64,000 nucleotides of DNA, taken from positions 248,001 to 312,000 of the forward strand of contig BGKB01000010.1 in NCBI GenBank assembly GCA_003116975.1, read 5' to 3'. Origin of the DNA: Aurantiochytrium sp. KH105. Its lineage: Eukaryota > Sar > Bigyra > Thraustochytrida > Thraustochytriidae. This document shows positions 9,057 through 63,684 of the stretch, one piece after another. Every line of letters starts with the position of its first letter. Within the stretch, counting starts at the first letter, position 1. Under the pieces are notes generated by a model that saw nothing but the letters and a program-made list of their open reading frames with translations, did no database searches and was not told where the DNA came from. The translations under genes were made by a program, and so were the position numbers.

Positions 9057-12000
9057 ATGGGGGTCAAGGTCATCGTCGAGTTCGACGACGGCCTGGGACA
9101 CCGACGTCGGGTGCGGGCTGCAGTCTCGCACGAAGAATGCACGCTTAAAGACATCAAGGCAGCGGTCGCGAGCGAGGTACTTACCGATAAAATTGCTGTT
9201 CAAACCACGGGACTCCAGCATAATTACGAGCTTCGAAACAATGCAGAACTCCAGGAGTTTCTGCAAGGCGTGGACAGTTCTCTCGAGGCAATTGTCGTCG
9301 AAGTCAAGACCCTCAGAAGCAATCCTACCAAGCTTCGCTCCATTATTGAGCGTTCTCAACGCTTCGGAAAACTATCCAAGTCCTCCGCTGGTGGAAGCTC
9401 AAGCATTGCAGTGCGCAGGGCCGCTGCGGCCGCCGCCGCCGCTGCCGTAGCAGAACACAAACGAAGGGCCACGCGGAGTAGCGGGAATGCAGAAGGGGTC
9501 GAAAGCCAGCCATGGAAGATCTTGACAGAAAATAACGGGCCGCGCAAACGTAAAGACAAAAACACTGATGATCCACGCAAATATTCCGACACCGGCGACG
9601 GTGATGCATCTTCTGATGACAAAAGCGACGAGGACGACGAAGACAACGATGAAGAAGATGACGACGACGACGAGCTAGAGGACCTCGGGAGCCTCGGGAG
9701 CCTTCGACCTCTCGTTCCCAAAGATAGATCCAGACTCACTCTGTCCTTTCTCGAGGATCAACTTAGCTCGTACCGCATCAGCTGGGGTAGCTGGAAGGTT
9801 GAGCAGTCCAACAAAACAATTGAAGACCTTTTCGAGGAGCTGCGCAATAATGCGAGTGATTTGTACGCAGACAATCACGGCGTCATTCGCGTGGTGCGTC
9901 TCGTTCGTGTGAAAATTGTGCAGCCAGAAAGCAAGTACATTCTTGTCAACGCGCTAAAAATGGTTGATCTGCGAAGAAAACACAACGACGTTCACAGCCT
10001 GCCCGCGTACAAGTGCAAGCGAAACGAGTCTCCATACCATGCAGCTCTTCGCAACGTCCAGCAGGAACTTGGATTTGCGCTTTGGGGGCCCGTAAGCGGT
10101 ATTGAGGCTGCTCACGGGACAGTCGTCACAACATTGACAAACGAGCTTGCGCCGCGCGATCCCCACGCACGTCGCCGCAACATATTGCACGGTGGTACCA
10201 CCATTCTTGAAAAGGTGCGTCCCACTGGATTCGAGCGTCCAACGCATGAATTTCGCGAAAGTAAGTCCTTTCCGGGCTTACGAACAGCATATTACATCAA
10301 CACTCTCGTGTTGGAAATGCTCAGTCCTCGAGCTCCAAAGCAGGGGTCCTTTACTGCTGTTGATCAACAGCATCTCGACGTGATTCGTCTTTGGCAGTGG
10401 ATGCACCCCGAGCACGTACAGTCCAAAATTCTTCGCGAGGAACCACACGCAAACATGCGACAAAATACGCTTGGACATCTCACGGTGGAAGGCTCAAATC
10501 GACCTGGAGGAGCTGGGGCCATGGGCGCCGATGATGGCGATGAAACAGAAAAAGCGCATTTGGGCATTGTTGCTTCCAAGGCTGGTTTGCTGGCTCGCAA
10601 GGCAGCGCTCTACCGTCAAAATCTCGCCCTCATGGACGGCCCGCCAGCTTCTTCACTTCTCTCGCGAATTGCCGAATTTCGGTTCCGCGTTGTTCAGCCA
10701 TCCAAACGAGAGCGCCACGAAAAAGTCGAGCAAGAAAATTTGCTCTTGCACTATTCGTTGCCAGAGGACCCTCGGGAAATCACCGTCAACCTCCTCAACA
10801 ACTGGCTGGAGCGTTATGGCGTAGACACAAGTCGCTGGGGCACCGGCCAGGCGAAAACGGTGCAGCAGCTTGTTGACGAACTTCACAAGGGCGAAACGAC
10901 CCTTGGACTCACTTCGCCCGGCGAAGCACCCACGGGAGGTGGCATTGCGCCGCTAGCCACCTCGTCAGCCGGCGCCTCAATGCCTCCACGAAGTGTTCCG
11001 AGCCAACGCTTTAAGAACGCCGGAGCCACGGCCGCCGCTGCTGGGGCCGCCACAGCCGCAGCCGCCTTGAGCGGGGCCAGACAACGTCTTCTCTCTTTTC
11101 GCCCGTCTACCCGCTTTGCTTCCAAAACAGCCCTCCGCGTGATTCGTGTCGCCAAGGTCGAACTCATCCACGAGCGTAACCCGGACCTCATGCTCGTCGA
11201 AACCCATCAAAAGCTCGCGGACTCGCGTCTTCGCGTCCGTTTCAAGACGCTCGCGGAAAAGTTCAAGCCTGGCGAGACGCCTCGAGATGCCGCTCTGCGG
11301 GGCATTCGCGAAGAGATTTTCGACCCTGACATTTACACCGTCAACGAAAACGGAGACCGGGAAGTGCGCAAGAGGCCCTCGATCGCGGAGCTCAGCAAAC
11401 GTGTTCGCATTCTCTCCATCCATGCGCCTCTGGTGGAGGTCTCTCCTTCGCCGTCCTACCCGGGTCTGGAAACGCGATACATTCTTCACCTTTTTCGTTG
11501 CATGGTGCCCTTTTTGCCAGACGAGCCCTTTTGCACGGACGAGCCCTCGTACAGAAACGGCGGGTTGAGCATGGTCACACACTATTGGCGCTGGGAAACG
11601 CGTCCTACAATTACGGCAATGACCACCTCGCTCATCAATCAGGTTTGCTTCTACTTTCGACTTGTCCCCCCCGCAGAACGCGACGACAAGGTCCTCACAG
11701 ACTGGCTCTACGAGGCTGCCAAGACGAATCAAGTCAATGTCATCAAGCTCCTTTGCGCTGTCGATGAGGAGGGCGTCGTTGACCCCTGGGAAGACGAAGA
11801 AGCCCCCGCTGCTGACGATGTCGAAGACGCGGATCAAGAGGGCGGCAGCAGTGAGGAGGTTCCTCAGTCGAGCGCGTCACAGCTCAGTACCGAGCGCGTT
11901 CCACGCGTGAAACTGGATCCGGCCATCTTGCGCGACAAGGCGGGCCGGAGCCCGCTGCGCATCGCTACCTTGCATGGAGCGGGCGACGCCGTGGAAGCGC

Positions 12001-14486
12001 TTATCCGCATTCAACTGAGCAACGCGCAGAAAAAGGCGCAGGAACTCCTCAAAACGCCTCGCGAAGACCAGCTTCACGAGATGGATGTCTTTGCCGTCAA
12101 TCAGCCTGAAAAGTGCGCCGTGGACGGCGAGTCTTGCACCCTCATTTACTACGCGGCCATCGCGAATCGTGTAAGCCTCGTCAAACATTTGCTCGGGTCC
12201 AAGAGCGTAGCCGTGAACTCGGTGTGTCTACACTCGTGCATTTCGTGCGGCGCGGTCGAAGCGCTTGCCGTCCTGCTGCCGCGACTGCGCTATGATCCGT
12301 CAGCGCAAGGCAGCTCGCGACGCCGCGTCCTCTTTGGGGTGGAGATGGATAGCAGCGTCGACTTGAACAATCCTGAGGTGCGCGCGCGTTTGTCGGCTGA
12401 TCTGCCCAAGGCTGACAACTTTAGCTACTTTAAGTCGTTGCTGGACCACATTGAGCGGGAATTGAATGCACTTTCGGGCGCAGGAAACAAACTCATTTGG
12501 AAGACGAATGCAGACAGCGACGGTCAGGTCAGCATGGCACCTGCGCTACGCGCTCTCGAGGTCGTGCTGCAGTACTGCAATCCGACAGCGTACTATTACA
12601 GATCATTCTTGCACATTTACCTGCACAAGGTGATTGAGCTGGACGACCGGCCCGAAGAGGAAGCAATCTTGAGAGAATTCATTGATCGGTCACGCTTCCC
12701 GCTGCATATTGCGCTCATGAGCGCTCACGTTTTACGCAGCGTTTTTGGTCTCGAAAAACGATTCTGGGACTCTTACCAGAGTCACGCGGACAACTTTCAG
12801 AACCTGGTGTGCAACATTCTCGACTGCTGCGAGGACCAGGCCGAGGCCGAAGAGCTTCTCCGCGAACGAGCAGACATCCCTTCGTGGCGACGCGAAAATG
12901 GGACCTTGGTCACCCGGCCCTTGGCACACCGGCACAAGTCTACTTGTGCCTACCTTGCTGTAAAGTACCGTCTCAAACGGGTGGTCGCGCACAAGTTTTT
13001 TACAACGCAAAACGATGCCATCTGGTTCAACGACGCAAATGACAGTCTCTACACGCGTGGTCTTGGAAGTCTGGCCAATCTGTCGGCAAGCTTTTTCCCG
13101 CTCTTCAAGCAAGGCAAGACGAGCGAGGTCCCCGTTCGCACGGGTGGTCCGACTGCTCAGCGTTTCGATGTCGACCGCAAGACGCGCAACGAGAGCCTTG
13201 TCGCGTTTCTGCTACGCGTGCCGGGTCTCAAGACTTCCATCCAGGCCAGCTATCGAGCTTGCGTGAGTCTCGTCTTGCTTGTGCTGCTCGTCTTGATGAC
13301 TCCAGTGCTGTGGTTGTTGCCTTTTTCTCGATCGTTGCGCATCATTGTCGATATTCCGCGGACCGAATTCGCCTGTTGCTACTTTAAATGGTCCGTGTGG
13401 AGCATGTCGTACGTTCTGTATCTCTTGGCCTTTGCCTATTTGGCCACTAGAAACGCGCAAGGCGAGCAAGAGGCGTTGTCCACCGCAGAGCTGATCTTGA
13501 TCATCTTCTTTTTAGGTAACGTTGTCGGCATCGTCGAGCAGATTGCGGCAATCGGCGTGGGTCCCTTCCTGCAGCATTCCGTCAATATTGTCGATGTAGG
13601 CGCGTCGATCGTGCTTACTGCTGCTTTTTGCATGGATCGCACGACGGAGGCATATGACATTCTCATGTCCATCGGCGCTATCTTGTCAACCTTTCGACTT
13701 TTTCATCTTTTCAGCGCAAGCAAAGAGCTGGGGCCGCTGTGGATTACTATGCAATATGTGGTGTGGGACGTGATTCGCTTCCTGGCGCTCTTGGCTGTCG
13801 TCCTGGTTGCTTTCATTCTCGCGTTTGTGTTTCTGCTGGGAGGTCAGGGCGTCGAGGGATTTGAGACTGCAGGTGCGGCTTTTTCCTCGCTCGTGTGGTC
13901 CGTATTTGAGGCCTTTACCACGTACGACCCCAACCAGGGTGTTCGCACACGGCTGTACCAGGTGTTTCTCTTTGGTTTTCTCCTCATCGCCGCCGTCCTT
14001 TTGACCAATTTGTTGATTGCCATGATGACGCGGCGCTTTGAGCAGGTCGCACAAACAGCGCGCGTGCAGTGGTTGTATGCATTGGCTCAACTCATCGAAA
14101 AGTACAGTCTCATGCCCATTGCGCCGAGCCCCATCAACTTGCTCTCCTTTTTGCCCAACCTTGTCTTTCGCGTTCTTTACGGCAAGCAGTCGCTATATGA
14201 CCCGTACATTCCGGAATTCAAGCGTGGACATTCTATTGCGGTCGTGCCGATTATAACGTCCGAAGATCCCTTATCAAACGTCAACAAGCGAGAGCTTGAG
14301 CAGGCTCTCAACTTTCGATGCACGCGCCGTGCGGTGATGACGCGTCACATTCGCAAAAGCAAGCTGCGCGATGCAAAGCATCGCGAGGTACAGGATGCGC
14401 TCGCTCGCATTGGCCAGACGCTTGATCAGGTTTTGGTCTTGCAGCACAAGGATATGGCGGTGCGGAACGCTCGCATTTTTTCTTAG
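9057..14486 (+). CDS. TRP-type cation channel with tandem N-terminal Nudix-like domains
   Basis: 1809 residues; the ATG at 9057 has a strong context (CCACC before, G after). Order: ubiquitin/PB1-like N-terminus (about 1-82); acidic linker (about 183-212); module 1 (about 224-430); module 2 (about 539-860); ankyrin-like stretch (about 955-1078); six-helix ion-transport domain with pore loop and S6 ending NLLIAMM (about 1398-1661); basic C-terminal tail. The modules repeat each other: a helical segment, then IRVVRLVRVKIV or LRVIRVAKVELI, then a Nudix-box-like segment. In module 2 this is GETPRDAALRGIREEIF, keeping E-x7-R and the EE pair but lacking the canonical RE and final Gly. Module 1 has NESPYHAALRNVQQELGF, further degenerate. 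TRPM2 carries a degenerate NUDT9-like domain at its C-terminus that binds ADP-ribose; here two lie before the membrane domain. A ligand-gated role is inference. Membrane location is clear. Confidence 0.82.
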   Translation: MGVKVIVEFDDGLGHRRRVRAAVSHEECTLKDIKAAVASEVLTDKIAVQTTGLQHNYELRNNAELQEFLQGVDSSLEAIVVEVKTLRSNPTKLRSIIERSQRFGKLSKSSAGGSSSIAVRRAAAAAAAAAVAEHKRRATRSSGNAEGVESQPWKILTENNGPRKRKDKNTDDPRKYSDTGDGDASSDDKSDEDDEDNDEEDDDDDELEDLGSLGSLRPLVPKDRSRLTLSFLEDQLSSYRISWGSWKVEQSNKTIEDLFEELRNNASDLYADNHGVIRVVRLVRVKIVQPESKYILVNALKMVDLRRKHNDVHSLPAYKCKRNESPYHAALRNVQQELGFALWGPVSGIEAAHGTVVTTLTNELAPRDPHARRRNILHGGTTILEKVRPTGFERPTHEFRESKSFPGLRTAYYINTLVLEMLSPRAPKQGSFTAVDQQHLDVIRLWQWMHPEHVQSKILREEPHANMRQNTLGHLTVEGSNRPGGAGAMGADDGDETEKAHLGIVASKAGLLARKAALYRQNLALMDGPPASSLLSRIAEFRFRVVQPSKRERHEKVEQENLLLHYSLPEDPREITVNLLNNWLERYGVDTSRWGTGQAKTVQQLVDELHKGETTLGLTSPGEAPTGGGIAPLATSSAGASMPPRSVPSQRFKNAGATAAAAGAATAAAALSGARQRLLSFRPSTRFASKTALRVIRVAKVELIHERNPDLMLVETHQKLADSRLRVRFKTLAEKFKPGETPRDAALRGIREEIFDPDIYTVNENGDREVRKRPSIAELSKRVRILSIHAPLVEVSPSPSYPGLETRYILHLFRCMVPFLPDEPFCTDEPSYRNGGLSMVTHYWRWETRPTITAMTTSLINQVCFYFRLVPPAERDDKVLTDWLYEAAKTNQVNVIKLLCAVDEEGVVDPWEDEEAPAADDVEDADQEGGSSEEVPQSSASQLSTERVPRVKLDPAILRDKAGRSPLRIATLHGAGDAVEALIRIQLSNAQKKAQELLKTPREDQLHEMDVFAVNQPEKCAVDGESCTLIYYAAIANRVSLVKHLLGSKSVAVNSVCLHSCISCGAVEALAVLLPRLRYDPSAQGSSRRRVLFGVEMDSSVDLNNPEVRARLSADLPKADNFSYFKSLLDHIERELNALSGAGNKLIWKTNADSDGQVSMAPALRALEVVLQYCNPTAYYYRSFLHIYLHKVIELDDRPEEEAILREFIDRSRFPLHIALMSAHVLRSVFGLEKRFWDSYQSHADNFQNLVCNILDCCEDQAEAEELLRERADIPSWRRENGTLVTRPLAHRHKSTCAYLAVKYRLKRVVAHKFFTTQNDAIWFNDANDSLYTRGLGSLANLSASFFPLFKQGKTSEVPVRTGGPTAQRFDVDRKTRNESLVAFLLRVPGLKTSIQASYRACVSLVLLVLLVLMTPVLWLLPFSRSLRIIVDIPRTEFACCYFKWSVWSMSYVLYLLAFAYLATRNAQGEQEALSTAELILIIFFLGNVVGIVEQIAAIGVGPFLQHSVNIVDVGASIVLTAAFCMDRTTEAYDILMSIGAILSTFRLFHLFSASKELGPLWITMQYVVWDVIRFLALLAVVLVAFILAFVFLLGGQGVEGFETAGAAFSSLVWSVFEAFTTYDPNQGVRTRLYQVFLFGFLLIAAVLLTNLLIAMMTRRFEQVAQTARVQWLYALAQLIEKYSLMPIAPSPINLLSFLPNLVFRVLYGKQSLYDPYIPEFKRGHSIAVVPIITSEDPLSNVNKRELEQALNFRCTRRAVMTRHIRKSKLRDAKHREVQDALARIGQTLDQVLVLQHKDMAVRNARIFS

Positions 14487-14895: not shown

Positions 14896-15730
14896 TTACT
14901 CGTCAACAGAAACGAGACCGAGATAATCGTCCTTGATGGTTCCAACTGCAGATACGCTGTTCTGGTCAAACTTTACGTTCATGAGGCGAAGACGCACACC
15001 ACTACCGGCGCGGATTTCGACCTCTTTATCCTCTGACACCCAGGCACTTCGCTCGTGATCAAAACCTTCTTTGAGATCCTCGGGCATCATGTGGCGTGAA
15101 ACAAAGATTTGAAGCGGGCCAGCCTTTGCAAAAAAACCATAATTGAGAGCCGTGGTTACGACGGCGTCAAGGACTTCGAGACGGAAAGGACGAAAGACAA
15201 CAGCCTTGAACTTGACCTTGTACGTCACCTGGCCGGTGCTGTCTTCAATCTGACCTTTGCTAATATCTTCGTCATTGATCTCTGTAACGTACACGACGTA
15301 ACCGATGCGACCAAGAGCGGCGCCTTCCACGGAGGACTTGAGTCGCGACTTGATCTTTTCGCGAAGTTGGGGGCCGAGATCCTCTGGGTTCATGGCCAGC
15401 TCCTCCTCGAAGCCTTTCTACGGGTTTTCCACGTGGCGCAGGTCATGTTAAGATAAAAAAAGGTACGTCAGTCAGTCAATGCTTGGTCAGTACGCGAAAC
15501 TCATCTCCCTCCTGCTCTCCCGTTCTCGTCCGCGCACGCGAGTGCGAAAGAACAAGCTCTCGGCTGCAAGGTTGTGCGCGCCTGATCGCTCTCCCCATCC
15601 GTATCCTCTCCATGCTCCGCAGGGCCCGGCGGCGCTTTGCCTGGGTCGTGCCGGACAGGCGGGTACCTCCAGAGGCAGCGTGCTCGCCCGCTGCCGCGCA
15701 ACGCGTCTCGCCACGTACGAGGAAGAACAT
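14896..15730 (-). CDS. RPB7: RNA polymerase II subunit RPB7, two exons
   Basis: RPB7 pairs with RPB4 as the stalk of RNA polymerase II. The main exon (15417-14896) matches the family along its length: a tip domain with KYKxxVFRPF-type sequence (here KVKFKAVVFRPF), DAVVT, a GPLQIFVSRHMMPEDL segment in the OB-fold, and the near-invariant ending DDYLGLVS. The main exon lacks the usual MFF/MFY start, but minus strand 15730-15719 reads ATG TTC TTC CTC followed by donor GTACGT. The exon at 15417 follows a TAG acceptor with KGFEEELA. Joining them gives MFFLKGFEEELAMNPEDLGP, which lines up residue for residue with known N-termini. The protein is 177 residues (about 172 in animals) with a 301-base intron. 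Transcript not seen, but the alignment is persuasive. Confidence 0.93.
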
Positions 15731-32047: not shown

Positions 32048-33980
32048 ATGAGCCCCGGGCTGCACCTCAGCCTGCGGCTGCCCGGGAGCCAAATCGAGAA
32101 ACCCCCGAACGGGGACAAGTTCCTGCTGCCGAAGTGGGCGTGCAAGCCCTCGCAGGGCGCCGCGCTGCACGTGACCAAGAACGGCGAGACGCTGTCCACG
32201 CTGCAGCTCGACGACCACACTTACTTTATGTTCGGCCGCTCGCCCAAGGTCTGCGCCGAGGGCCACGGGTACACCATCAACCACCCCTCGCTCTCCAGAC
32301 AGCACGCGGTCATCGTCCACGGGAACGATGAAACTCTGTATATTATTGACCTCGACTCGCCCGCCGGGACGTGGGTCAACAAGGAGCGGCTCCAGCCGTA
32401 CTGCCCCAAGCTCCTCGAAAACGCAAACATCCTCAAGCTTGGCCACTCTACGCGTCGCTACGTTGTGCGCCTCTTTCCCATGCAATGCAAGCTCCGGGCG
32501 CGCCAACGTGCCGGCTCGTCATGCTCCGCATCCTTTTTGACCGAAGCGAACCTCAACAAACTTCGTGTCAGCACGCCAAGGCGTTCGGGCGCGGGGTGCG
32601 CCCCCAACGCCAAGGCTCTCAATGCCCCTTGCGACAGCTTGCAAGGCGCCGCAGACACTGCACGCGCTGCTCAAGGGGATATGTCCACCGCCCGCGCTTT
32701 CGATCTCGGCAGACCCACTTGCGTCGACGAAAAAGCCGCGCACACCTTTCACGAAAATGCCAAGGATGCAAGCGCTGACGCGTCTCACAACAGCGATGGC
32801 GTGGATCCCGATCTTACAAACCAAGTCGGAAATCGTAATGACGGGGAAGACGATGACGACGATGACGATGATGATGACGATGACGACGAAGATGAGGACG
32901 ATGAAGCGTACAGTCCATGCACGCGCACCGAGCTCAGACAACGCAAAGAAAACCTCCGCCAAGCGCGCTTGCATTCTGGATTGAACGCTGCCGTCTCATA
33001 TCCATCGCCAAAGTCCATGCTCGGTCGTCGCGGAAGCGACTCCCCGGTCTCCTCCTCTATTTCGGCCGCCGAGCTTGCAGCCGCCGTGGCTGCCACCTCG
33101 AGCCCTGTTGCTTCGCCTGTCATGCGCCCGCAACCCCGTCGCCATGGAAGCTCAGGGCTCACCACGACCGTCGAGACGTTTGCCCGTTTGCCACCTGCAT
33201 CATCATCATCATCATCATCCTCGGGACCTGCGCAACGTGCAAGATCGCTATCCACGAGCAGCAACCTCTCTGGATTGCATCCCATGTCTATGGGCTCGCC
33301 TCGCGAAAGCGTCTGCTCTGTGGGGAGCACCCTCTCCTTGTCTGGCTCCCAGTCTGGCCATCAAAATCCATTCTCAACCGCCTCGCCCATGTGCGCGAGC
33401 ATGCTCTTGGGCTCGCCCACTCTTCAGATCTCGCAGAGCTTGCCTACTTCTACGTATATGAGTGAACTCTCGCTCGACCGTATTGGCGGCCAGCCCAGCG
33501 ACTCTCCCGAGAATCACCACTCCCGTGCTGATCATCCTCATGGGCGCCACGTGCGTCAGCACAGTCACCAGCTCATGCAAAGGTCCAAGTCGCCCTTTCA
33601 TCGGAGTCGGTCCAACTCCACCTCTGCCACAATGAAGCGTCGCGCTTCCTCGCAGCTCATTTCTCATGCGACGCAACGTCGTCGGAGCGTGCTTGGCCCG
33701 TGCAGGCGCGTCAGCTTTTCGCAGTCGGGGCCCGAGGTCATTGATGCTGACTGCGTGTTTGGAACGGATTCGACATCGTCTGGAACATTGCCGCCTGCTC
33801 GGGGCGCACAGTCTGACTCGCCTCGACGCATGTCCAAAGATTCGTCTCCAGGCTTTGTTCGCCCGCGCTCATCCACCCCGTTGCCCGGTGACGCTATGAG
33901 CACAACCTCATCTCCGGAAAATGCCAGCCCGCGCGGCGCACAGCATTTGTGCAATGCCGCTTTCAAGAGTATTGGTCTCA

Positions 33981-34011
<31 letters not shown>

Positions 34012-34870
34012 CAACAACAATAACAATAAAATTGACGATGGACCTCATGACATGATGACACAGGCGCACAACGGCGAATCGGAGTCGGCGCCTTCGCGTC
34101 TCTCGCTCGCCTCTAACTCTGATATATCAACCTCTTCAAACATGTCGGAGCGCATTTGCTCTTCCGTCGTCAAGAGCGGCATCATGGAAACAAGTGCTTT
34201 TTTGCCCCGTCAGCGCTCATACGAGTCCGTGTCGTCGGACTCTTCCGAGTCAGGGTCGGAGAATGAGGCCCGTCGCACTGTCGAGCGTCGCGCAGAAGCC
34301 TCTTTTGCTCCTACTTTTGCCGCTACTGCTTCTCCTTCTGCTGCTGCAGCAGCTACGGCTGCGTCAAGCACCTCCTCCTCCTCCTCGTCCTCCTCCTGCT
34401 CTTCTTCTTCAGCTTCTTCTTCTTCTTTTTCTTCTGCAATGACATCCTGCTCTTCTTTGTCAAAGCGTGTGTCCCCACCGCCACGACTCAGCCTGTCCGA
34501 GAGCATCAAGCCTCTCTTCAACGCCCCAGGCGTGACCTCGATGGGTAACTCGCCTTGTGCTGCCGCCAAGCGGCGCAGCCTTGAGCGGACTCCGAGCGCA
34601 CAAATGGGCGTGAGCCCGGACTCCTGGCCCACTTCGCCCGCCGCTTTGCGTGGGCGCTGGCGTAACCCGCATTCGCATGTTCGCTCGAACCAAGATCAAA
34701 ACCATCATCGCCACCACCGTCATCATCGCCACGGCCACGATGGTCAGTGCAAGGAGCCTGCTTGCACAGTTAAATTGCACGAGGCTCTTGATAATATTTG
34801 TGAGGAGATGTCTCCTTCGACTTCACGAAACGCTTCTTCGCATCGTCATGAGGAAGCGGGCTTGCGCTAA
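32048..34870 (+). CDS. NIPP1-like FHA-domain protein with RVxF motif, greatly extended
   Basis: 940 residues from an ATG in a near-ideal context (GGCCACC before). Residues about 27-140 match the FHA region of NIPP1 (PPP1R8), a nuclear inhibitor of protein phosphatase 1: a PKWACKP lead-in like NIPP1's PPWAGKP, FGRSP, then SRQHA, IDLDSPAGTWVN and LKLGHSTRRY, in family order. FHA domains bind phosphothreonine. At residues 554-557 lies RVSF, set in CRRVSFSQSGPEVI, which parallels the PP1-docking RVTF of NIPP1. Unlike the roughly 350-residue animal protein, there are hundreds of Ser/Asp-rich residues on both sides of the RVxF, including an Asp run (about 267-284), poly-Ser/poly-Asn tracts and a His-rich patch. 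A nuclear PP1 regulator is the best reading. Alternative: an FHA protein with only a chance RVxF. Confidence 0.78.
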
Positions 34871-35115: not shown

Positions 35116-37890
35116 TCATTTCACGAGCAAGCGCTGAAAGGCCTCGTGCGCAAAAGGGAGGACCTGAGACACTTCGCAGCGCAAGTTGACCTTGCAGGCG
35201 TCGTGGCCGTCCTTAAAGGTGATTTCTGCCAACACCATGGCGCCTGTGGTGGTCTTGCTGGAAAAGTAGCCGACGCGCTGGTCCGCTGCAGGGTTGCGTG
35301 TGGCAATGTGAAAAATGTTGTGCTGCTCGAGCAGCGAAACGACGGCGTCCATCTGGGTGGACACGAGACCACGCAGGGTTGCCGCCTGGCCCTTGGCGTC
35401 CCCGAGCGTCTTCCAGGAATCGATGAAACCCTTCTTGTCCGCCCGTCCTTGCTCCGTAAAGAGCACGTAAAAGGGCAACGTGACCTTGAAGTAATTGATC
35501 GCGCCCACGGCAACGTTCTTGAGCGCCACGTCAATAACAAGGTTTGGTGCCACGCCTGGCTGCGCCATCTCGGGCCGCGTCACGATTGGCACGCTGAAGC
35601 GCGACTTGGGTCCACCCTGCATGAGACTGGTGCCCAGATCTACGTTCACAGAAGAAGGGGCCAGTGCAAAGGTGTTCTTGTTGAACTGGATTGCAAACTT
35701 GCCAAAGGGGGTTTGGGAGCTCACATTGGAAAAGTCCAGATCGAGATAGATGGAACCGTTGCGACGCGCAAAGTCCGCATCCAGCTGCAGACCCTCTGCC
35801 GCCGCGGGGCTCAGGCGCGTCGTGAGAGGCGCGCTTGAAGCGGGAGCCCCCATGCTCGGCGCATCAAAACCGCCCAGGAGGTCGTCGCTCCCGCTGCCGC
35901 CTCCGTTGCCGCCGCTCACCGACAGACCGCCAAACCCGAGGAGGTCCTCGCTATCGTCCTGCTGCTGCTGCTTCTTCTTTTTGCCGCGGCCTTCGTCATC
36001 GCTGTCGTCGCTGTCGTCATCGTCATCATCGTCGTCGCTGCTCTCCAGACCCACGTCGTCGTCATCGTCGTCGCGCATGCCGGAGCCAAGGGGAATTCGT
36101 GTGCGCTTGACAAAGGCCGAGGGCGGTTTGTGGTAAATGGAAGCGAGCGTGGCAATATTCTCCACCAAAAGGTCAAGCAGAGCCGGCTCCAGCTGCGACG
36201 AGTCGTCCACAATGACGGGCTTGTCCGAAAGAACAACGCGCTTCGCCGCCTCTGGGTCAGTGGACAAAAGTCGCCAATAAATGTAGCCGCGATCGCGCAG
36301 ATCCGGGTTGTCACTGCTTTCCGTGGCCATGGAAAGAACAGATTCCATAATTTCTTTGGCTCCGTCGGGGCGCTTGAGAAAGAGCTTGACAGTCGCCGTG
36401 AGCAGCTGCAGCTGCACGTCAGCCGTCTCGTCCTGAAAAGCGTCCATAAAGGTTTCGAGGAGCTCATCAGCATTGTCGATGCGCTCCGCGTACTCGCCAA
36501 CGATCCAAATCATGGCCGCCTTGGCCTCCGGCTCGTCAAGTGTCTCGAGATTCTCGCACAGCGTGGCGATGATGGACTCGTAGCGATTGGGAAAGCGGCG
36601 AAAGATGTAGCTAATCACAATGATGGCCTCTTGCACCACGTAGTTGACCTTGGTCTTGATGAGGTCGAGCAGGACATTGATGCACCGTTCCGCGGATCGC
36701 TCGAGCTTGATGGCGACGCGGCCAATTGCACGCACAGAGGACTTGACAAAGTCAATGTCGATTTCGGTGGCATACTCTTTCAGCTCCAAGAGGACCTGCT
36801 CCGCATTGCGGTCGGTCGCCAGCTTGACGAGGATTTGCAATTTCTCCATTTTGACATAAATGGGGTCCGTGTAGCGGCAAAAGAACACGCGAACGTCGTT
36901 CGCGAGGATTGAGGGCCGCTTCTGCACAATGAGGTTAATGTTGCGGAGAGCCACGTACTGGATCTCGGGCTCTGCCGACAGCAGCGTCACGAGTGGCGGC
37001 GAAAGCTTGCGCGTCAAGGACTTGACAGTCTCCTGCGACTCAATCAGATCCACGTACTTGACAATGATTTTCACGGCCGACATGACAACAGCCGAGTTGC
37101 TGTGCTGCAGGCGCGGCGAGACGCGCTCCACGATCGACTCTGCCTCGCGGGCGCTCGACGGCTGGTATGTGGCCAGCGCATCGAGGATAAAGACCTGCGA
37201 CCACTCGCTGCACTCTGCAAGAGCGGCGAGAAGCTTGCTGAGAACAGACCCGCTCACGGCAAAGACCTTGGACCCGTCCACGCTGAAGCTGGCGATCTCG
37301 CTCAGAGCCGCCACGGCGTTGGCGACGACGGTCGGGTTCGAGTCGCTAATCAAGTCGTGCAAAAGCTCGAGAAAGCCCTGCTCCTCGGCAAGCTCGGGGT
37401 TGATGTCGTAGAGCTTGGCCACGCAAATGGCTGCCGTCTTGCGCACGTACGGATCATCATCCGAGAGCGAGCGGCGGAGAGGATCGCACAGGTACTCTGT
37501 GATTTTCTCGACGCGGATACAGCCCATCGTGCGAATGGCGAGCGCGCGAATGAGCGGGTTCTGGTCGTTGGCGTCGCGCCGGAAGCAGTTCACGGCCAAA
37601 ATCGCTACGTCAGGTGCGGACTTGGCATAGTTGATCAGGTACAGGTACACGAGCTTTTTCAGTTCCACGTTGGCTGTTTGCATGCAGTTGAGCATGTCGG
37701 GGAACAGCTGCGAGACGTCTTTGCCCACCGTCATTGCCGCAATGACCTTTTTCACGGCCTCCTTGCGCCGGTCTGCCTTTTGGTCATTGAGCTCTTCCTT
37801 GAGCTCGTGCATCTCGCCCTTCTTGGTCGTCGAAAAGTACTTGGAGTCGCCGCCTCCTTTCCTCAGCCCTGCAAGGCTCATCATCATCAT
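35116..37890 (-). CDS. Beta-adaptin, large subunit of clathrin adaptor AP-1/AP-2
   Basis: 924 residues; four ATG codons in a row at 37890-37879, any of which could start the protein. The N-terminal trunk (about 1-600) is a HEAT/ARM solenoid with classic beta-adaptin sequence: KYFSTTKKGE, GKDVSQLFPDMLNCMQT, KKLVYLYLINYA, RALAIRTMGCIRV and YVRKTAAICVAKLYDINPEL. The hinge (about 605-670) is extremely acidic with Asp/Ser runs, then KKKKQQQQ, and contains DLL-type words (EDLLGF, DDLLGGF) that may bind clathrin. The C-terminal ear (about 680-924) is present and ends FQRLLVK. Beta subunits build the AP core and recruit clathrin at trans-Golgi or plasma membrane. Many protists share one beta for AP-1 and AP-2; I cannot say which applies. 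The 5' side faces the F-box-like gene at 38656. Confidence 0.95.
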   Translation of the reverse strand: MMMMSLAGLRKGGGDSKYFSTTKKGEMHELKEELNDQKADRRKEAVKKVIAAMTVGKDVSQLFPDMLNCMQTANVELKKLVYLYLINYAKSAPDVAILAVNCFRRDANDQNPLIRALAIRTMGCIRVEKITEYLCDPLRRSLSDDDPYVRKTAAICVAKLYDINPELAEEQGFLELLHDLISDSNPTVVANAVAALSEIASFSVDGSKVFAVSGSVLSKLLAALAECSEWSQVFILDALATYQPSSAREAESIVERVSPRLQHSNSAVVMSAVKIIVKYVDLIESQETVKSLTRKLSPPLVTLLSAEPEIQYVALRNINLIVQKRPSILANDVRVFFCRYTDPIYVKMEKLQILVKLATDRNAEQVLLELKEYATEIDIDFVKSSVRAIGRVAIKLERSAERCINVLLDLIKTKVNYVVQEAIIVISYIFRRFPNRYESIIATLCENLETLDEPEAKAAMIWIVGEYAERIDNADELLETFMDAFQDETADVQLQLLTATVKLFLKRPDGAKEIMESVLSMATESSDNPDLRDRGYIYWRLLSTDPEAAKRVVLSDKPVIVDDSSQLEPALLDLLVENIATLASIYHKPPSAFVKRTRIPLGSGMRDDDDDDVGLESSDDDDDDDDSDDSDDEGRGKKKKQQQQDDSEDLLGFGGLSVSGGNGGGSGSDDLLGGFDAPSMGAPASSAPLTTRLSPAAAEGLQLDADFARRNGSIYLDLDFSNVSSQTPFGKFAIQFNKNTFALAPSSVNVDLGTSLMQGGPKSRFSVPIVTRPEMAQPGVAPNLVIDVALKNVAVGAINYFKVTLPFYVLFTEQGRADKKGFIDSWKTLGDAKGQAATLRGLVSTQMDAVVSLLEQHNIFHIATRNPAADQRVGYFSSKTTTGAMVLAEITFKDGHDACKVNLRCEVSQVLPFAHEAFQRLLVK

Positions 37891-56223: not shown

Positions 56224-58613
56224 ATGTTCTCGAACGCGGCCACGCCGCAGCAAGGCAACCAGGGAGGTGGTCTCTTTGGCAACCAGACGCCGGCAAACAG
56301 CGGAGGTGGTCTTTTTGGCGCGCAGACGCCACAGCAAGGCAACAATAACAGCGGCGGCCTTTTTGGCGGCGGGGCCTCGACAAGTCTCTTTGGAGCCCAA
56401 ACTCCGCAGCAGCAACCGCAACAGAGTGGCAGCCTCTTTGGCTCGACATCCAATACCAGCAGTGGCGGTCTCTTTGGCTCGCAAACGCCCCAACAGCAGC
56501 AGCAGCAGCCACAACAACAACAACAACAACAACAAGGTGGGGGTCTCTTTGGCGGTAGTAATACCGGAATGTTTGGTTCCTCAGCAGCAACGACCACAAC
56601 CATGACGGCGCCTGGGGGCTCCACGTCGACTGCAGGGGGCCCCTTTGGAAGCGGGTCCCAGGCACAGGGTCAGCAAATGCAGCAGCAGCAACAGCAACAG
56701 CTCGTTCCTTCCAGCACGGCAGATCCCACAACCGAAAGCTCGCGAGCACTCATTGACAAAACGCTGCAAGGCGTGCGTCGCTTCAGCGACGTCCTGAGCG
56801 AACTCAAAGACTGGATCCGCGATCTCGATCATGTTGTGCGTGTTTCCTCGGGCCACGAAGAAGAGTGCGAAAACTTCATCGAGACCCTACGAAGCAAGTT
56901 TGTTCCCCGTTGCGCTCAACTTTTGCAGCATCCGCCAAGGAACTCTAGCGAAAAGGTCACCGTCTCCAACTTGGATCGCAACGCTGTTGATGTTGTTCTG
57001 ATTCTTCGACTTGCAGAGGAACTCGAGCTTTCCGAGCTGGAGGCTCTCAATCTCTGGGATTGCGCGGCGCGCTTCCCGGAACTCCCAGCTGAGGTCGATT
57101 TTCTGCCCTCGAGCACCGACACCTTTTCCGTCGCTGTCGAGCTCTTTTACTACAAACGCGACCTCGAACTGGTCCTCTTGCTCGACCTCATCCGGTGCCA
57201 CTCGGCCAAACCTGGTAGTAACGTCAATGTAGACCTCGCCCGAGGCATCGTCGACGAGCTCCTTGTGAACCACAAGCTCGGCGAGCTCATGATTCGACGC
57301 GTTCGAGGACACAACGAACGAATTGCAGCGATCCTTGCGCCGCAGCACCGCAACATGGCTAGTCTTTCAATTCAAACCAGCGCACTGCAACTCGAGCGCC
57401 GCCGTCTTGCCGACGCAGTCTTCATTCTTCTCATCGGAACTTTTGCCACAGACGAGGAGACGCTCGCACTCTTCGCCATTGTGCGAGACATGTCAAATCG
57501 CTGGCTTGACGTGCACGAGGTTGCCGCGAATGAGCAAGAGGCCATGTCTTCATACGAGTCTCACTTGGTCCTCGTGCTCGCCTTGGCTTCGGCGCTCGAC
57601 CGCACGGATGCGCTCTATGATCGCACCTTGGCGCGAATGCAGAACAAGCCGGTGAGGTCAGAGTCTCTTAACTTTATCGAGGCATGCGAACGCGAAGTCG
57701 AAAGTAATGTGAGCGACGCAGAGTCACAAAGCGGATCATTTGCGCAACCTAACAGCACGCGCGGCTCGTCGAACACTGCAGGAAGCACGAAATGGAAGCA
57801 TCAGGGCGTCCACGGCGTCGTGACTCTTTTCTGGGCCTCTTTCATTGGTGATTTGCGTCCCGAAGACTTTCCACGCTCTTCGCTTGCCTCCAAACAGCAC
57901 CGAAATGACGTGCTCAACCAAGGCTACAAGTTGCGTGGCCTCGCTTATTTGCGTGGCCTCGTACGTAGCGCAGAGTTTTTGCAAGACGAACTTCGCGACA
58001 GCTACATGAGCATTCTCACAATTTTTGTTCAAAAGCTTGTTACGGCCAACGTCGAGACGGTGCTCGGCACCGAAATGCTAGTCGATCTCTACACCACCAA
58101 CTCCCGCGAAGCTCTGCGGGCACACGAGGAAAGATCAAATTATGCCGGCGCGAACTCCACGACCGGGGGTGTCTTGCCCCATCACGGTCAATCCATGCTG
58201 GCGGGAGCACATGGGCACGGGCCTCATCACAACATGCGCGGCCCTGGTGGCGTTTCGTCAAAGTCACTCGTCTCCGACAAAGACGCATCCCCAGACACTC
58301 TTGAGGATCTCTTGGGCCTCTTACGTGCACTTCGCGTGCTCGAGCCGGAGGACGGTGCAAGTCTTTGGCAGAGCCAAGATACCCTCAGGGAGTTTCTATA
58401 TTCTGTCGAGCGTGTTGTGGACCAGGATAACGACCCGACGTCCCTGTACGTGTCCTATTTGGGATTCCTCGGTAGTCTTGCGAAATCAAGGCAAGACGTC
58501 GACTTTCTATTGCATCGTCGCTACAACAGATCCACCAGCATGTCCTCCCCGTTGCTTGACTTTGGCATGCTCTTTGACGTTTTGCGGCAATTTCTTAGTG
58601 AGATGCAGGCTCA

Positions 58614-58644
<31 letters not shown>

Positions 58645-61600
58645 CCCTTTTCGGATGCTCTCGTCGCGCAGCAAGGCCACCAACACTACATGCACCAGCA
58701 ACAAGCTCATCAGGGCTACCCATACCAGCATGCCTCGCAGGCAGTTTCCCTCGTGCAGGAAATCATGCCGCTCGCGGATCAGCTTGTCCTTACATGCTGG
58801 CTGGAGGCCCTGTGCTCTTGCCTCGCCTTCGTGTCTCCGAGCGAGGTTTTCGGTGACACACCAGTCGAGGAGTTCATTAGCATAGCAGTTGCCATGCTTC
58901 GATGCCGACTCGAACCGGCCCTCAAGGGCCAGCTCGTCCGCGCGCTCTCTCTTATGGCGGTTCAGCTCCCAAAGGATCGCAACCTCTGGAGTCGACTCGA
59001 AGGGGACTCTTCCGGAGCCGCGGCGGACCAGTCGGTCGTTTCCCACCCAATGAATGGGTTTGGAAGCACTTCTATGCTGTCGCAGGGCGGCCAAGCCTTG
59101 CAGTCGGGTTACGGTGCCCCCGCAGGATTCTTTGATGGTGGGCCCACCATGATGGAAGCCATCAGACTTGACCTCAATCACAGTGAGGCTGTCAACAATG
59201 TGTATCCGCTCACGGCCAACTATCTGGAACTCATTTGGAAGCTTCTCCGTGATGTGCAGGATGATGATTATCGCTACTTGGAGGCTCGGACCAATGAGAC
59301 TGCCCCCGAGGCAGCATCGCCAGCTAAAGGGCCTATGCAGACGTCCTTTAATGGGGGCAACAACGCCTTTTCTTCAAACGCGCAAGGCGCGCAGCCCTCT
59401 ACTCCTCCCAAGGTAGGTCTTCTTCCATACCTCGAGTATGTTCTATTCGAAGTTTTCCTCAAGCTCGATCACCGCAAATTTCGCGACTCTGGAGAGAAAT
59501 GGCGTTTGGCAGCGGGCTGCTTGCGCATTTTCGTGCAAATCCTCGAGGAGTACACGGTCGACAGCGAATCTGCGAGAAATGACTTTGCCGCCTCTCAGAC
59601 ATATAGCACTGGGTTCTGGGTTATGGCCAAGCTTCTCGAGGGGAGTGCTTTCTTTCGCCAGCTTGTCGACCTCTTGCAAGAGGCCGGGGGAGAAGAGGGC
59701 GTGCGCGCACGCCGCGAGAGCACTTCAACTGTAGACTTGCAACAGTATGCCAGCGCCATGGACTCGTACTTGCACGATGCGAGCGCTGCTAGCTTGCAGC
59801 AGCAGCAACAGCAAATGTCGCATCAGCAGCAGGGCCCATTCTTGCTTCACCAACAATTGCAACAACAACAGACAGCTGCTGGGAGCCAGGGTAAAAAACC
59901 ATGGTTCGTCGTCTCTTCCCATCGGGCCAACGTTGATGTGCGCAACTCAAGTGTATCACAGGGCGATGCATCTGGCGCACCCTTTGGCATGTCGCTCATG
60001 CGGCCGAGCGGCGCGAGCTCCACGTTGCCGGCGTACGATGGTGGACGATTCGCCTCGTGGCTTTCCCAGCCGCACGCGGCCGGTTGGGCGTCCGCCCTAC
60101 GGGTTGCAGGGACGAGGCCCGTACGGTCGGGGGACCCGGACTCTCCGCTACTCCCATTTTACGAGCAGGTCGAGGGTAAATGGTATGGCTGGGACGACGG
60201 AGATCTTGGCGGGCGTTGGCGCGAACACACGGTGCGCCTTGCACTGCGGCTGCTCAAGCAAGTGTCTGAGCGAGAAAGCTGGTTTTTTGAGGGTATCCAT
60301 GCTTCGGATGTTTCCCTCGAGAGCCGCCTCGAGCGTCTGCATCGGCTCTTTACGCACCAACAAGACCGTCTGCCCACGGTCGCTGCCTTTTGCGGCTATC
60401 CATACTCTGCGGAAATGCGTCTCAACGCGATCGAGCTCGTCTTTCGCCTCTCTGAGCAGTCACCGACGGGTTCGGTCGTCAAGACCTTGCGTAGACATGG
60501 GGAGCTGCTCGTGCGCAACTTAACGCTCTGCTTTACGGATCAGTTCAATGGACTCGACGATCCGGACCGCAAGGTGACCAATTTCAATCCGAATGCCGCG
60601 ACTCCAATCGATGACAGCCCCTTCCGCGTGAATGCGAACACGAATGTGAACGCGAAAGTCGATGTAATGGACCTCGACGTTGCAGCGAATGCCAAGATGC
60701 GCAAGCGCATTCTTCTTTTGCTCATCCAAGGCCTAACGCCCTCGCGCGGCAACGTCTCGGAGCTCGTGCTTGGCCTCGATGAGATTTCCACGCGTAATGC
60801 TCCAGTGGAGTCGATCGATCTGCGACCGGGACGGCGATGCTGCCTGAACGCTGTGCTTGATGCGCTCGACGATCTGGACAACGAATTTCCTGCTGACACT
60901 ACCCAAGCCAGTCTCATGGAACTCATGTACCGACTGGTGCTGCTCCTTTGCCATCGACGACCTACCGAGATCGCTCTCTCATACGGGCTTAATGCGCAGC
61001 GCGACAACTTTTGGCTCCGCCATTTCCAGCGTGTGGCCACGGAGGGACCGCGAAGCGATGACCCGCGAAATGTGCAATGCGTGGCGTGGGTGATGAACGG
61101 CGTGTACCTGGATTTGCGCATCGCCCGGGCGCAAATCTTGCCCGTTGTGTCTCTCAACAAGATCCTCCCGCACCTCTTTTCTGGAAGTCTCATTCGTGGT
61201 GAAATGGACGAGGCGGACGCGCGCATTCGCGAAGTTCTATTGGCTCTGAAGGGTGCGTTTTCTCCTGATGCTGCACTCTCGTCTCACCTTCCCGATCTGG
61301 TGCGCCAATTGCAACAAGATGCGCAAGCCGCACAGTCTCTCTGGATTCCGTTCCAGGACTACTATGGACTGACTCTCCACAAGGTGAACGAGTCGATCAT
61401 CCGGAGCGCCGTCAAGAGCGAGCACGATGAGGCACTTTTATGGGCCGAAAGCAGGAACCGTGCGATTGACCTCTTGGCCGCACGCGCAGAGGTTGTGGCA
61501 TCGTGGCGTGCCATCGTACAGCTCGCCTTTGTGGACTGCCGCGAGGACCTGATTCGCAGCTGCGCGCCCGGGCGAGGTGATCAAGAGCTCCTTGTGCAGT

Positions 61601-63684
61601 TCACGCTGTCGCTTCTGGCCCAACTGCGTCGCTCTCCTGACGCCCACGTGGTCTTGGCGTACCCGCTGGCTTCGTTGGTGCCCACACTTGTTGCGCAGAT
61701 GCGGCACGGCGACGAGAGTGCGCGAGATGACGCATCTGCGAATGAGATGGCGCTTGCGGCGGCGACGGGAAGCTACACGTCTGCCTTTTCGCGGGGTCAG
61801 CAGCCGCGGGCCAAGATTGAAACCCAAGGCTTGGCGAGACTCTCACGAGAGGAACAGCGGACTCTTCTCGCGGGCATGCTCGAGGCCTTGCGTAGCCGCG
61901 CGCGCATGGGCGCAAGCGCGGACTCGGTCTCCCCCGAGCTGCGTGCCGCTCTGTACACCGGAATATGTGTTCTCATCAATGGCATGCGGCGACACTACGC
62001 AACGAACTTGTCAAACCAGGTGAGCCAGTTGCCACTATCTATCACAGAACGCGAATTTCTTGCTGGCGCAAAAGAGTTTGGCAGCGATGAGCTCCAGGAA
62101 CTGCGAAAGCGCGCGAAGTCCGTGCTCGATACTCTTCACGGTGGTGAGAGGTCAACGATCCTGGAAATCGTCGTTCCGGACGCACTCGAGTCCGAATCTC
62201 CCATGGCGCGCGCAACGGGGTTGGCAACGCTCAAGATTCTTCTCGAGTGCGATAGCGACGACGGCGACTGGTTGCGTCGTTTGCGGCGCGTTGGCGTCTT
62301 GCGCCAGCTGTTATCAGCCATCGTAGACCGCGTCTGCGCGGACAGGTTGCTTGCAAACGCGCAGGTCGAAAAGATCTATGAGCTTTCCATGACTGCGCTT
62401 TGCACGGCGGCGCAATCTGTGCACGGCGCGCAGGCCATCGTCAAGAGCGACTTTCTTCAGCGTCTCGCAAGCGAACCTCTTGTCGTACTTTGCGACAAGC
62501 GCGCCCTCGATGCTTGGGCCGGCTCCATGGGGGATACGGAAATGCACATGTCAACAGATGCTGCCGGTGGATCTGGACTGGGCGGTCCTGGCGAGACATC
62601 TTCGCCGTCCGGCGAGAACTTGCAGGAACGCCGCCACGATCTTGTTCTCCCCTTGTTGCGGCTCCTCTCTACGTTATTCACGACGCTCCGGGAAAACAGG
62701 CAGCACGGTGGCAACGCAGACCTCGCGCAGCTGCAAAAGGACGTCTTGTTGTTCTTCCGTGTGCAGCGCCGGATGGTCAGTTCCAGCCTGGGCTTCCCAC
62801 CATCGTCCATCAATGACATCGAGGAGAGTTCGTTGCTTCTCGCTCTTTTGGCGCATGCTACACGTGATAATGCCCAAACCGTCATGCAAGAGCTCGGTGG
62901 GACGGCGGACGAGTTCGACACCCTCGTGTTCGACCTCATTCGCGAGGTATGTAATCCGCAGCCTCAGCGTGGCGAGTGGAAGGATGTCTTGGCACCGGCG
63001 CCGGGGCCCGAGTCTGCGCGTCACAAGGAAGTGGTTGCCGCGCCGCCGGATCTGTCACCAACTAAACCCGCGGCCAATGCTTCCCTCTTTCAGCTCGATG
63101 TATTTGCGCAACAGCGACGTCTCCTGCAAAATGCCATCATGTACACGCGGGCGCGCCGGGATGCTGTGCAACTCAAGGAGAACCCGTCGATGGGGCGCAA
63201 CGACTCGCACGCGCACTCTCTCATCCTTTGTCTCGACTACGCGGCACACTGCCTTGCATGCTTGTCGCGAAACTCGCCAACGGTCTTTGAAGATGCGCTG
63301 TCGGAGCACCGCAAGCCGCATCGAAACCTGGACGCTAACGCGGCCAGCATGATTGCCTCTTGGAGCCAGCATCCGCAGTACGCGCAGTGGTCCTGCTCGA
63401 CGCTTCTCTTTGTTCTCGAAGGTGCGCTCGTGGTCTTATATGCGCGTCTGAAGCAGATTCGTCGCTGGAGCGTTTCGGAGAAAAGCTCCAAGCAGTCTAA
63501 TTTTGGCGCTCAGTCGCCGAACGCCGTGCGCGCCTGGCTGGCGCACGACAAGCTGCTGGCAAACCATTTCGAGCCTGCCCGGGACAAGTCGGCAATCGAG
63601 CAGCTCGAGGAGGTTGTGCAGTCCAATTCGTCTAGCAGCCAGTTTGTACACTTGATCCTGCGTCGCATGCGCGAGCTCGTATAA
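56224..63684 (+). CDS. Nup205/Nup192-type scaffold nucleoporin with GLFG N-terminus
   Basis: 2486 residues in one exon from ATG 56224. Residues about 1-146 are Gln/Asn/Gly-rich with nine xFG words, mostly GLFG (GGLFGNQTP, GGLFGAQTP, TSLFGAQTP, GSLFGSTS, GMFGSS). From about 160 to the end a long helical solenoid follows, with poly-Gln insertions near residues 800-820 and 1195-1225. The C-terminal third carries the Nup205/Nup192 pattern (IVVPDALESESPMARATGL, VGVLRQLLSAIVDRVC, VEKIYELSMTALCTAAQ, KSDFLQRLASEPL). Nup205/Nup192 builds the inner ring of the nuclear pore and in yeast and animals has no FG repeats, so an FG tail on it is unusual. The protein is also longer than the roughly 2000-residue animal form. 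Assignment to Nup205/192 rather than Nup188 is by sequence feel. Confidence 0.83.

Follow-up and report, generated by a model that had tools for sequence, protein, structure and literature searches.

Tandem N-terminal Nudix modules on a TRPC-like channel of the thraustochytrid Aurantiochytrium sp. KH105

Ion channels coupled to Nudix domains are already known, TRPM2 and its sister TRPS being Nudix-bearing channels treated in two reports (PMC13143021, PMC11479946). Here we describe a channel gene in a 64,000-nucleotide stretch of the Aurantiochytrium sp. KH105 genome (assembly GCA_003116975.1, contig BGKB01000010.1, positions 248,001 to 312,000), which is referred to as the window. As in TRPM2 and the TRPM2 chanzymes, a TRP-superfamily channel is combined with a cytosolic Nudix-fold domain. 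In contrast to TRPM2, the window channel has two such modules, they are N-terminal, they belong to another Nudix family, and the channel body is nearer to TRPC. Because module number and position differ from TRPM2, the fusion of Nudix domain and channel is probably independent of TRPM2. Our reading of the protein, to which we assign a probability of about one half, is that of a TRPC-like and presumably tetrameric cation channel, the opening of which would be controlled from the cytosol by the N-terminal pair of Nudix modules.

A preliminary description of this locus had used TRPM2 for comparison. The difference in arrangement that it pointed out is real; since the channel body is nearer to TRPC by sequence, TRPM2 is to be taken as an analogue rather than as the nearest channel. 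TRPC channels have ankyrin repeats and are not known to carry Nudix modules. The best PDB sequence matches of the window channel are TRPC3 and TRPC6, the match being clear in the TRP domain and weak in the linker helices. As far as the literature was searched, tandem N-terminal modules of another Nudix family are new, whether joined to a TRPC-like channel or, separately, to a chain of Cys-loop receptor type: neither an N-terminal Nudix TRP channel nor a Nudix/Cys-loop receptor fusion was found described in the titles and abstract openings listed from the open-licence literature, subscription journals and preprints lying outside this scope.

The gene and its conservation

The open reading frame spans positions 9057..14486 of the plus strand, on which all features of the gene are given, and runs from ATG to stop without internal stop codons, encoding a single protein of 1,809 amino acids (P0001). 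From the N- to the C-terminus this protein consists of two composite modules, an ankyrin-like segment, TRPC-like linker helices, a six-transmembrane pore and a TRP domain, each composite module being made up of a helical segment of about 45 residues and a Nudix domain. The gene was delimited by the frame, Pfam matches, a database match and a second haplotype copy. The database match, listed at NCBI as 'Short transient receptor potential channel 3 [Hondaea fermentalgiana]', is 99% identical and carries precomputed PF00293 and PF00520 assignments; Hondaea fermentalgiana is a thraustochytrid stramenopile.

The 76-Mb assembly (367 contigs) contains the channel gene in two near-identical copies, as it does most of the listed channel genes, and the frame is intact in both haplotype copies. 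Among the codons that differ between the alleles by a single base, 107 are synonymous and 22 change the amino acid; one further codon with several differences is synonymous. The uncorrected ratio of nonsynonymous to synonymous polymorphism (pN/pS) is 0.065. Module 1 contains one amino-acid change (V357I), residues 569-616 and 694-870 of module 2 contain none, and T691S lies at the edge of module 2. A search with residues 210-900 among the 8,000 candidates richest in common words found three proteins, namely the Hondaea entry and P0003 and P0004, two orthologues with the same layout. Identity to P0003 and P0004 amounts to 65 and 62% in the Nudix part of module 1, 66 and 58% in that of module 2, and 79 and 61% in the transmembrane region. 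Judged by sequence comparison, the layout is strongly constrained, as are the two modules.

A second TRP-like frame in the genome (L030:200-5281 on C39; 1,693 amino acids; further copy on C29) shows the same arrangement, with module copies at about residues 50-285 and 537-770 followed by a putative channel, which gives a partial Ion_trans match and stops shortly past its last transmembrane segment. The channel of this paralogue is 22% identical to that of the window over 510 columns (blastp, 4e-17). NUDIX was not listed by Pfam for this frame at E<=1; module profiles matched the protein with E-values from 2e-24 to 8e-10 (three profiles) and 3.7e-31 (combined), and shuffled paralogue modules reached at best 0.22 with four profiles and filters off.

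We considered the alternative that a gene-model or assembly artefact had joined a Nudix gene to a TRP gene. No supporting point was found for this explanation, and since two alleles, two orthologues and one paralogue agree in the order and pN/pS is low across the frame, it retains hardly any probability. Artefact and chance origins were both rejected on the grounds of the orthologues, the alleles and the shuffle controls.

The Nudix modules and their active sites

The Pfam family NUDIX (PF00293) matches the whole protein with 31.6 bits in two stretches (cut-off 21.1). Taken singly, module 1 scores 23.1 bits, above the cut-off, and module 2 scores 16.6 bits, below it; the orthologues reach 22.2 bits (P0003, above) and 16.8 bits (P0004, below). 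A profile search with module-2-type sequences identified 117 short free-standing proteins (P0005-P0121; E<=0.001 among 4,994 scored). These are mostly about 190 residues long and span the whole composite module, which they share with both channel modules, differing in being free-standing. From 109 of them, eight being left out as too long, partial or odd, a channel-free profile was built that matches module 1 at residues 230-457 (2e-21) and module 2 at 576-616 (1.6e-12) and 688-853 (6e-30), whereas none of 2,000 shuffled modules was matched at E<=10 with default filters. The same profile recognizes both modules in each orthologue and, as described below, further fusion proteins. By these matches both modules are members of one divergent Nudix family. 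The earlier proposal of a TRP-type channel preceded by a tandem pair of Nudix modules was right.

Organism names on the free-standing relatives include Chloroflexi/Chloroflexota, Patescibacteria and the gingers Curcuma longa and Zingiber officinale. Precomputed PF00293 is present on 41 of the 117, and the source labels read hypothetical protein, NUDIX domain, ADP-ribose pyrophosphatase YjhB, 8-oxo-dGTP pyrophosphatase MutT or uncharacterized. When a profile of 22 of the relatives (A6) was used, solved Nudix hydrolases were matched, E. coli MutT being the best (1.8e-5); a PDB search with a four-module profile (A2) gave three weak matches, none of them a Nudix protein. Two scans of genome contigs for the neighbourhoods of the bacterial relatives confirmed no relative and so gave no operon evidence on the ligand, the few and narrow patterns used not implying absence. 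A defence-system library returned weak matches only (best 1.1e-4, PDC-S07, to one free-standing relative), and no relative was found in the viral contigs searched. An uncultured phage record of 642 kb (LR756502.1) shows a 37.7% match to P0086.

Module 1 begins with a helical segment (residues 226-275, 9732..9881), placed by profile alignment as the counterpart of GIDTSxWGxGxAK in the relatives, and continues with the Nudix fold (residues 276-457, 9882..10427). In module 2 the helical segment (residues 569-616, 10761..10904) and the Nudix fold (residues 688-870, 11118..11666), both delimited by profile and model, are separated by a linker (residues 617-687, 10905..11117) that is partly Ala-rich and, in the orthologue alignment, almost missing in P0004. 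The sequence SPSYPGL (residues 798-804, 11448..11468) is a family signature, SPSYP being present in 115 of the 117 free-standing relatives.

For structure prediction module 2 was aligned with 66 of the 117 relatives and the two orthologues (A3), and module 1 with 66 free-standing rows (A5). From the latter alignment the orthologues were excluded because an earlier alignment (A4) had placed both on module 2. In the predicted structures both modules adopt the Nudix alpha/beta/alpha fold, in agreement with the preliminary description; within the module 2 linker the predicted local distance difference test score (pLDDT) falls below 50 at model residues 69-104, corresponding to protein residues 628-663. 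For module 1 as for module 2, the top fold neighbours are RppH, Ap4A and inositol-pyrophosphate hydrolases, which have tied Z scores and are weak evidence on the ligand, neither such ties nor a common fold being proof. Their substrates are dinucleoside polyphosphates, 5'-triphosphate RNA and inositol pyrophosphates. Neither NUDT9 nor NUDT9-H of TRPM2 was among the best 50 VIA neighbours of either module or among the best 50 of 793 Foldseek matches of the module 2 model, which excludes nothing.

The full canonical Nudix box is GX5EX7REUXEEXGU, and neither module carries it completely. In the Nudix-box variant of module 2 (residues 734-754, 11256..11318; E-x5-E-x7-R-G-x2-E-E) the spacing E740-x7-R748 and the pair E752 E753 are kept, as had been noted before, and E734 stands at the first Gly, G749 replaces the Glu of RE and F755 the last Gly. 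The degenerate box of module 1 (residues 318-339, 10008..10073), which deviates by Y318, RN and QE (Q336 E337, the QE for EE noted earlier), has the core RNVQQE. PMC6461439 gives REUXEE as the core of the Nudix box and RILRQE as the inactive box of human TRPM2, which RNVQQE resembles.

The pattern E-x7-R-x-x-x-[EQ]-E is readable in 105 of the 117 relatives; the other 12 fall outside it and are unclassified. In all 105 the residue after Arg is C, G or A, and in none is it Glu. Since every motif-fitting relative has RC, RG or RA, the missing RE is, by this alignment, a trait of the Nudix family and not decay in the channel; the preliminary description was right about the absence of RE in module 2. 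At the position of the MutT box Gly, Glu is found in 95% of the 109 relatives, and we suggest that this Glu may take over as the missing ligand.

As conserved set we used the 31 positions kept in at least 85% of the 109 relatives. Module 2 retains 29 of them, including E734, E740, R748, E752 and E753 (30 each in P0003 and P0004), and module 1 retains 19 (19 and 16). In module 1 three family Glu are replaced by Asn298, Tyr318 and Gln336, the three orthologues agreeing in each of these residues; a further Glu of lower conservation is lost as well, with a different change in each orthologue. The modules, which had been described as repeated, belong to the same family; judged by these residues a family-typical, enzyme-like module 2 stands beside a pseudo-Nudix module 1. 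In the paralogue both copies are decayed, keeping 14 and 17 of the 31 positions.

The near-complete residue pattern raises the alternative that module 2 is an active hydrolase tethered beside the channel and has no direct role in gating. Consistent with this, Nematostella TRPM2 currents were unaffected when ADP-ribose hydrolysis was disrupted, according to PMC6461439. Nevertheless, conservation between species is about equal in the two modules despite the three lost Glu of module 1, and two decayed copies are retained in the paralogue, so that we consider a mere tethered enzyme unlikely. Alternatively, the Nudix folds could serve without ligand binding as a scaffold holding the tetramer or protein partners together. 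That module 1 and the copies in the paralogue have decayed would fit, as would the mitoribosome Nudix-like chains (8a22, 6ywe) among the best 50 fold neighbours of module 1; the family pattern preserved in module 2 would be unexpected for a pure scaffold, and we give this explanation little credit.

A tree of 30 of the 117 free-standing proteins and 12 modules grouped the module-1 orthologues (100/99) and the module-2 orthologues (94/80). With its long branches it did not resolve the order among module 1, module 2, the paralogue and the receptor copies described below, and a duplication in place therefore lacks tree support.

The channel body and the segments preceding it

The pore region with the hydrophobic pre-S1 segment and S1-S6 (residues 1393-1660, 13233..14036) was delimited by Pfam, hydropathy and PDB search. 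Ion_trans (PF00520) scores 48.1 bits (cut-off 25). The pre-S1 segment is centred at 1412 and the hydropathy peaks fit S2-S6; S1 was placed at about 1443-1463 by eye and from the Pfam match. NLLIAMM, recognized earlier, lies at the end of S6 (residues 1651-1657) and is followed by the TRP domain and the next segment (residues 1661-1716, 14037..14204; alignment to TRPC6). Both the six-transmembrane Ion_trans pore and a TRP domain after S6, features of the TRP superfamily, are thus present. Against a formal TRP assignment stands the score of TIGR00870 'trp', 64.3 bits with a curated cut-off of 498.75.

The best PDB sequence matches are TRPC3 and TRPC6 (3.8e-18 by sequence, 1.2e-19 by profile), and TRPM2 ranks behind them (5e-11 and 2.9e-13). 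The TRPC-type linker helices before S1 (residues 1160-1330, 12534..13046; 80% identical to P0003 and 62% to P0004) give a weak profile match to TRPC6 215-305 (15 bits, i-Evalue 0.025). By these matches the channel body is nearer to TRPC than to TRPM. Pfam and profile searches of the whole protein placed neither NUDIX stretch behind the channel, where a C-terminal NUDT9-H-type domain would lie, and LSDAT/SLOG (MHR1/2 of TRPM2) was not among the nine Pfam families listed for the protein at E<=10; the genome search with PF18139 (LSDAT/SLOG) was run without a positive control.

These results bear on the explanation that the protein is an ADP-ribose-gated channel proper, whose modules equal the NUDT9-H of TRPM2 and sense ADP-ribose from oxidative or DNA damage. 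The predicted Nudix folds, the membership in the channel superfamily of TRPM2 and the parallel of RNVQQE to the dead human box (PMC6461439) favour it, whereas the TRPC-nearer body and the top fold neighbours, weak as these are, argue against it; on balance it appears doubtful. Gating by ADP-ribose as such is possible and plausible, as one candidate ligand among several, though not specifically supported.

The ankyrin-like segment (residues 880-1080, 11694..12296) gives weak Pfam ankyrin matches. These lie above the curated cut-offs in P0004, at the cut-off in P0003 and below the cut-offs in the window protein itself. The small N-terminal domain (residues 1-85, 9057..9311; 36% identical to P0003 and 33% to P0004) had been called ubiquitin/PB1-like by eye; a Pfam scan gave no family of this type, and the model, made without aligned relatives in this part, shows two strands and then long helices (pLDDT 44-80 by block), and this designation was not confirmed.

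Further fusions and the proposed mechanism

The ENA-sourced database protein P0122 (2,575 amino acids; 14 member sequences, one contig) resembles the window channel in that an ion channel carries the same module in tandem at its N-terminus, and differs in belonging to the Cys-loop receptor superfamily. The 109-member profile finds two full copies, at 19-235 and at 282-478, and, starting from 506, a third that is fragmentary; they keep 27, 28 and 17 of the 31 positions, the Nudix-box region of the third being largely missing. Neur_chan_LBD with four scored stretches and Neur_chan_memb with two follow the modules. PDB matches comprise the proton-gated channel GLIC and chimeras of it as well as nicotinic and 5-HT3 receptors, with the best listed stretches only in repeats 1, 3 and 5. 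FPxDxQ motifs occur at 851, 1553, 1923 and 2292 in four repeats that match one another, and a fifth repeat was placed by eye at about 1199, which suggests that five Cys-loop receptor subunits are chained in one polypeptide, possibly a naturally concatenated pentamer. By the conserved-position counts, the TRP-type window channel and the Cys-loop-type P0122 each combine family-typical with degenerate module copies.

One module (24 of 31 positions), also matched by the 109-member profile, is carried by an NLR-like frame of 3,886 amino acids in the genome (L020:1191-9998, C10 from 111191; second copy on C7). Its first 2,936 residues were scanned and matched TCAD9 (1e-30), with sub-threshold matches for a NACHT-like region and for HEAT repeats. 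In bacterial conflict systems Nudix domains, though not necessarily those of the present family, are among the predicted NAD/ADP-ribose-acting effectors, as stated in PMC7159879.

For the proposed control of the TRPC-like channel by its module pair we infer every functional step. Module 2 would be the main ligand site and bind a diphosphate-linked metabolite, which it might slowly hydrolyse; candidates are NAD-derived compounds (ADP-ribose, for instance), dinucleoside polyphosphates and inositol pyrophosphates. Module 1 would act as a non-catalytic binding or coupling domain. Occupancy may alter the packing of the pair on the layer of ankyrin segment and linker helices and in this way gate the pore, and module 2 could limit or reset the signal sensed by the pair. 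Such a design of sensor and reset would parallel the pair of ADP-ribose sites in TRPM2 chanzymes, though separately reached.

A broader and more tentative idea, which we hold to be possible but rather less than probable, is that the Nudix family, of which no description was met in the literature listed, is a portable metabolite-sensing cassette, fused independently and in tandem to the N-termini of two unrelated channel superfamilies (TRP tetramer and single-chain Cys-loop pentamer) and, in one case, to a NACHT-like/HEAT protein. The pairing of a typical with a degenerate copy would then unite sensor and enzymatic reset in one chain, and evolution would have arrived at nucleotide-gated channels by a second route next to that of TRPM2. 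The arrangement hints that metabolite sensing has been connected to channels in a second way, and two further fusions on unrelated channel superfamilies would show Nudix-channel coupling to be a recurrent solution. The small soluble modules (about 190 residues) allow direct ligand screening, and the free-standing relatives can be used for finding the ligand.

Elsewhere in the genome, frames of 1,792-1,816 amino acids on four contigs (G000:C85 at about 479602-483915, C184, C245 and C280) have four Ion_trans matches each, which suggests four-domain voltage-gated-type channels. The neighbours of the channel gene in the window, an RPB7-like subunit (14896-15393, minus strand), an FHA-domain protein (32048-34870, plus strand) and beta-adaptin (35116-37890, minus strand), give no pointer to channel function, and an Rfam scan of the window had no match. 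A frame of 2,486 amino acids at 56224-63684 of the plus strand shows homology to Nup192 (130.8 bits), with an N-terminal FG-repeat-like stretch below cut-off.
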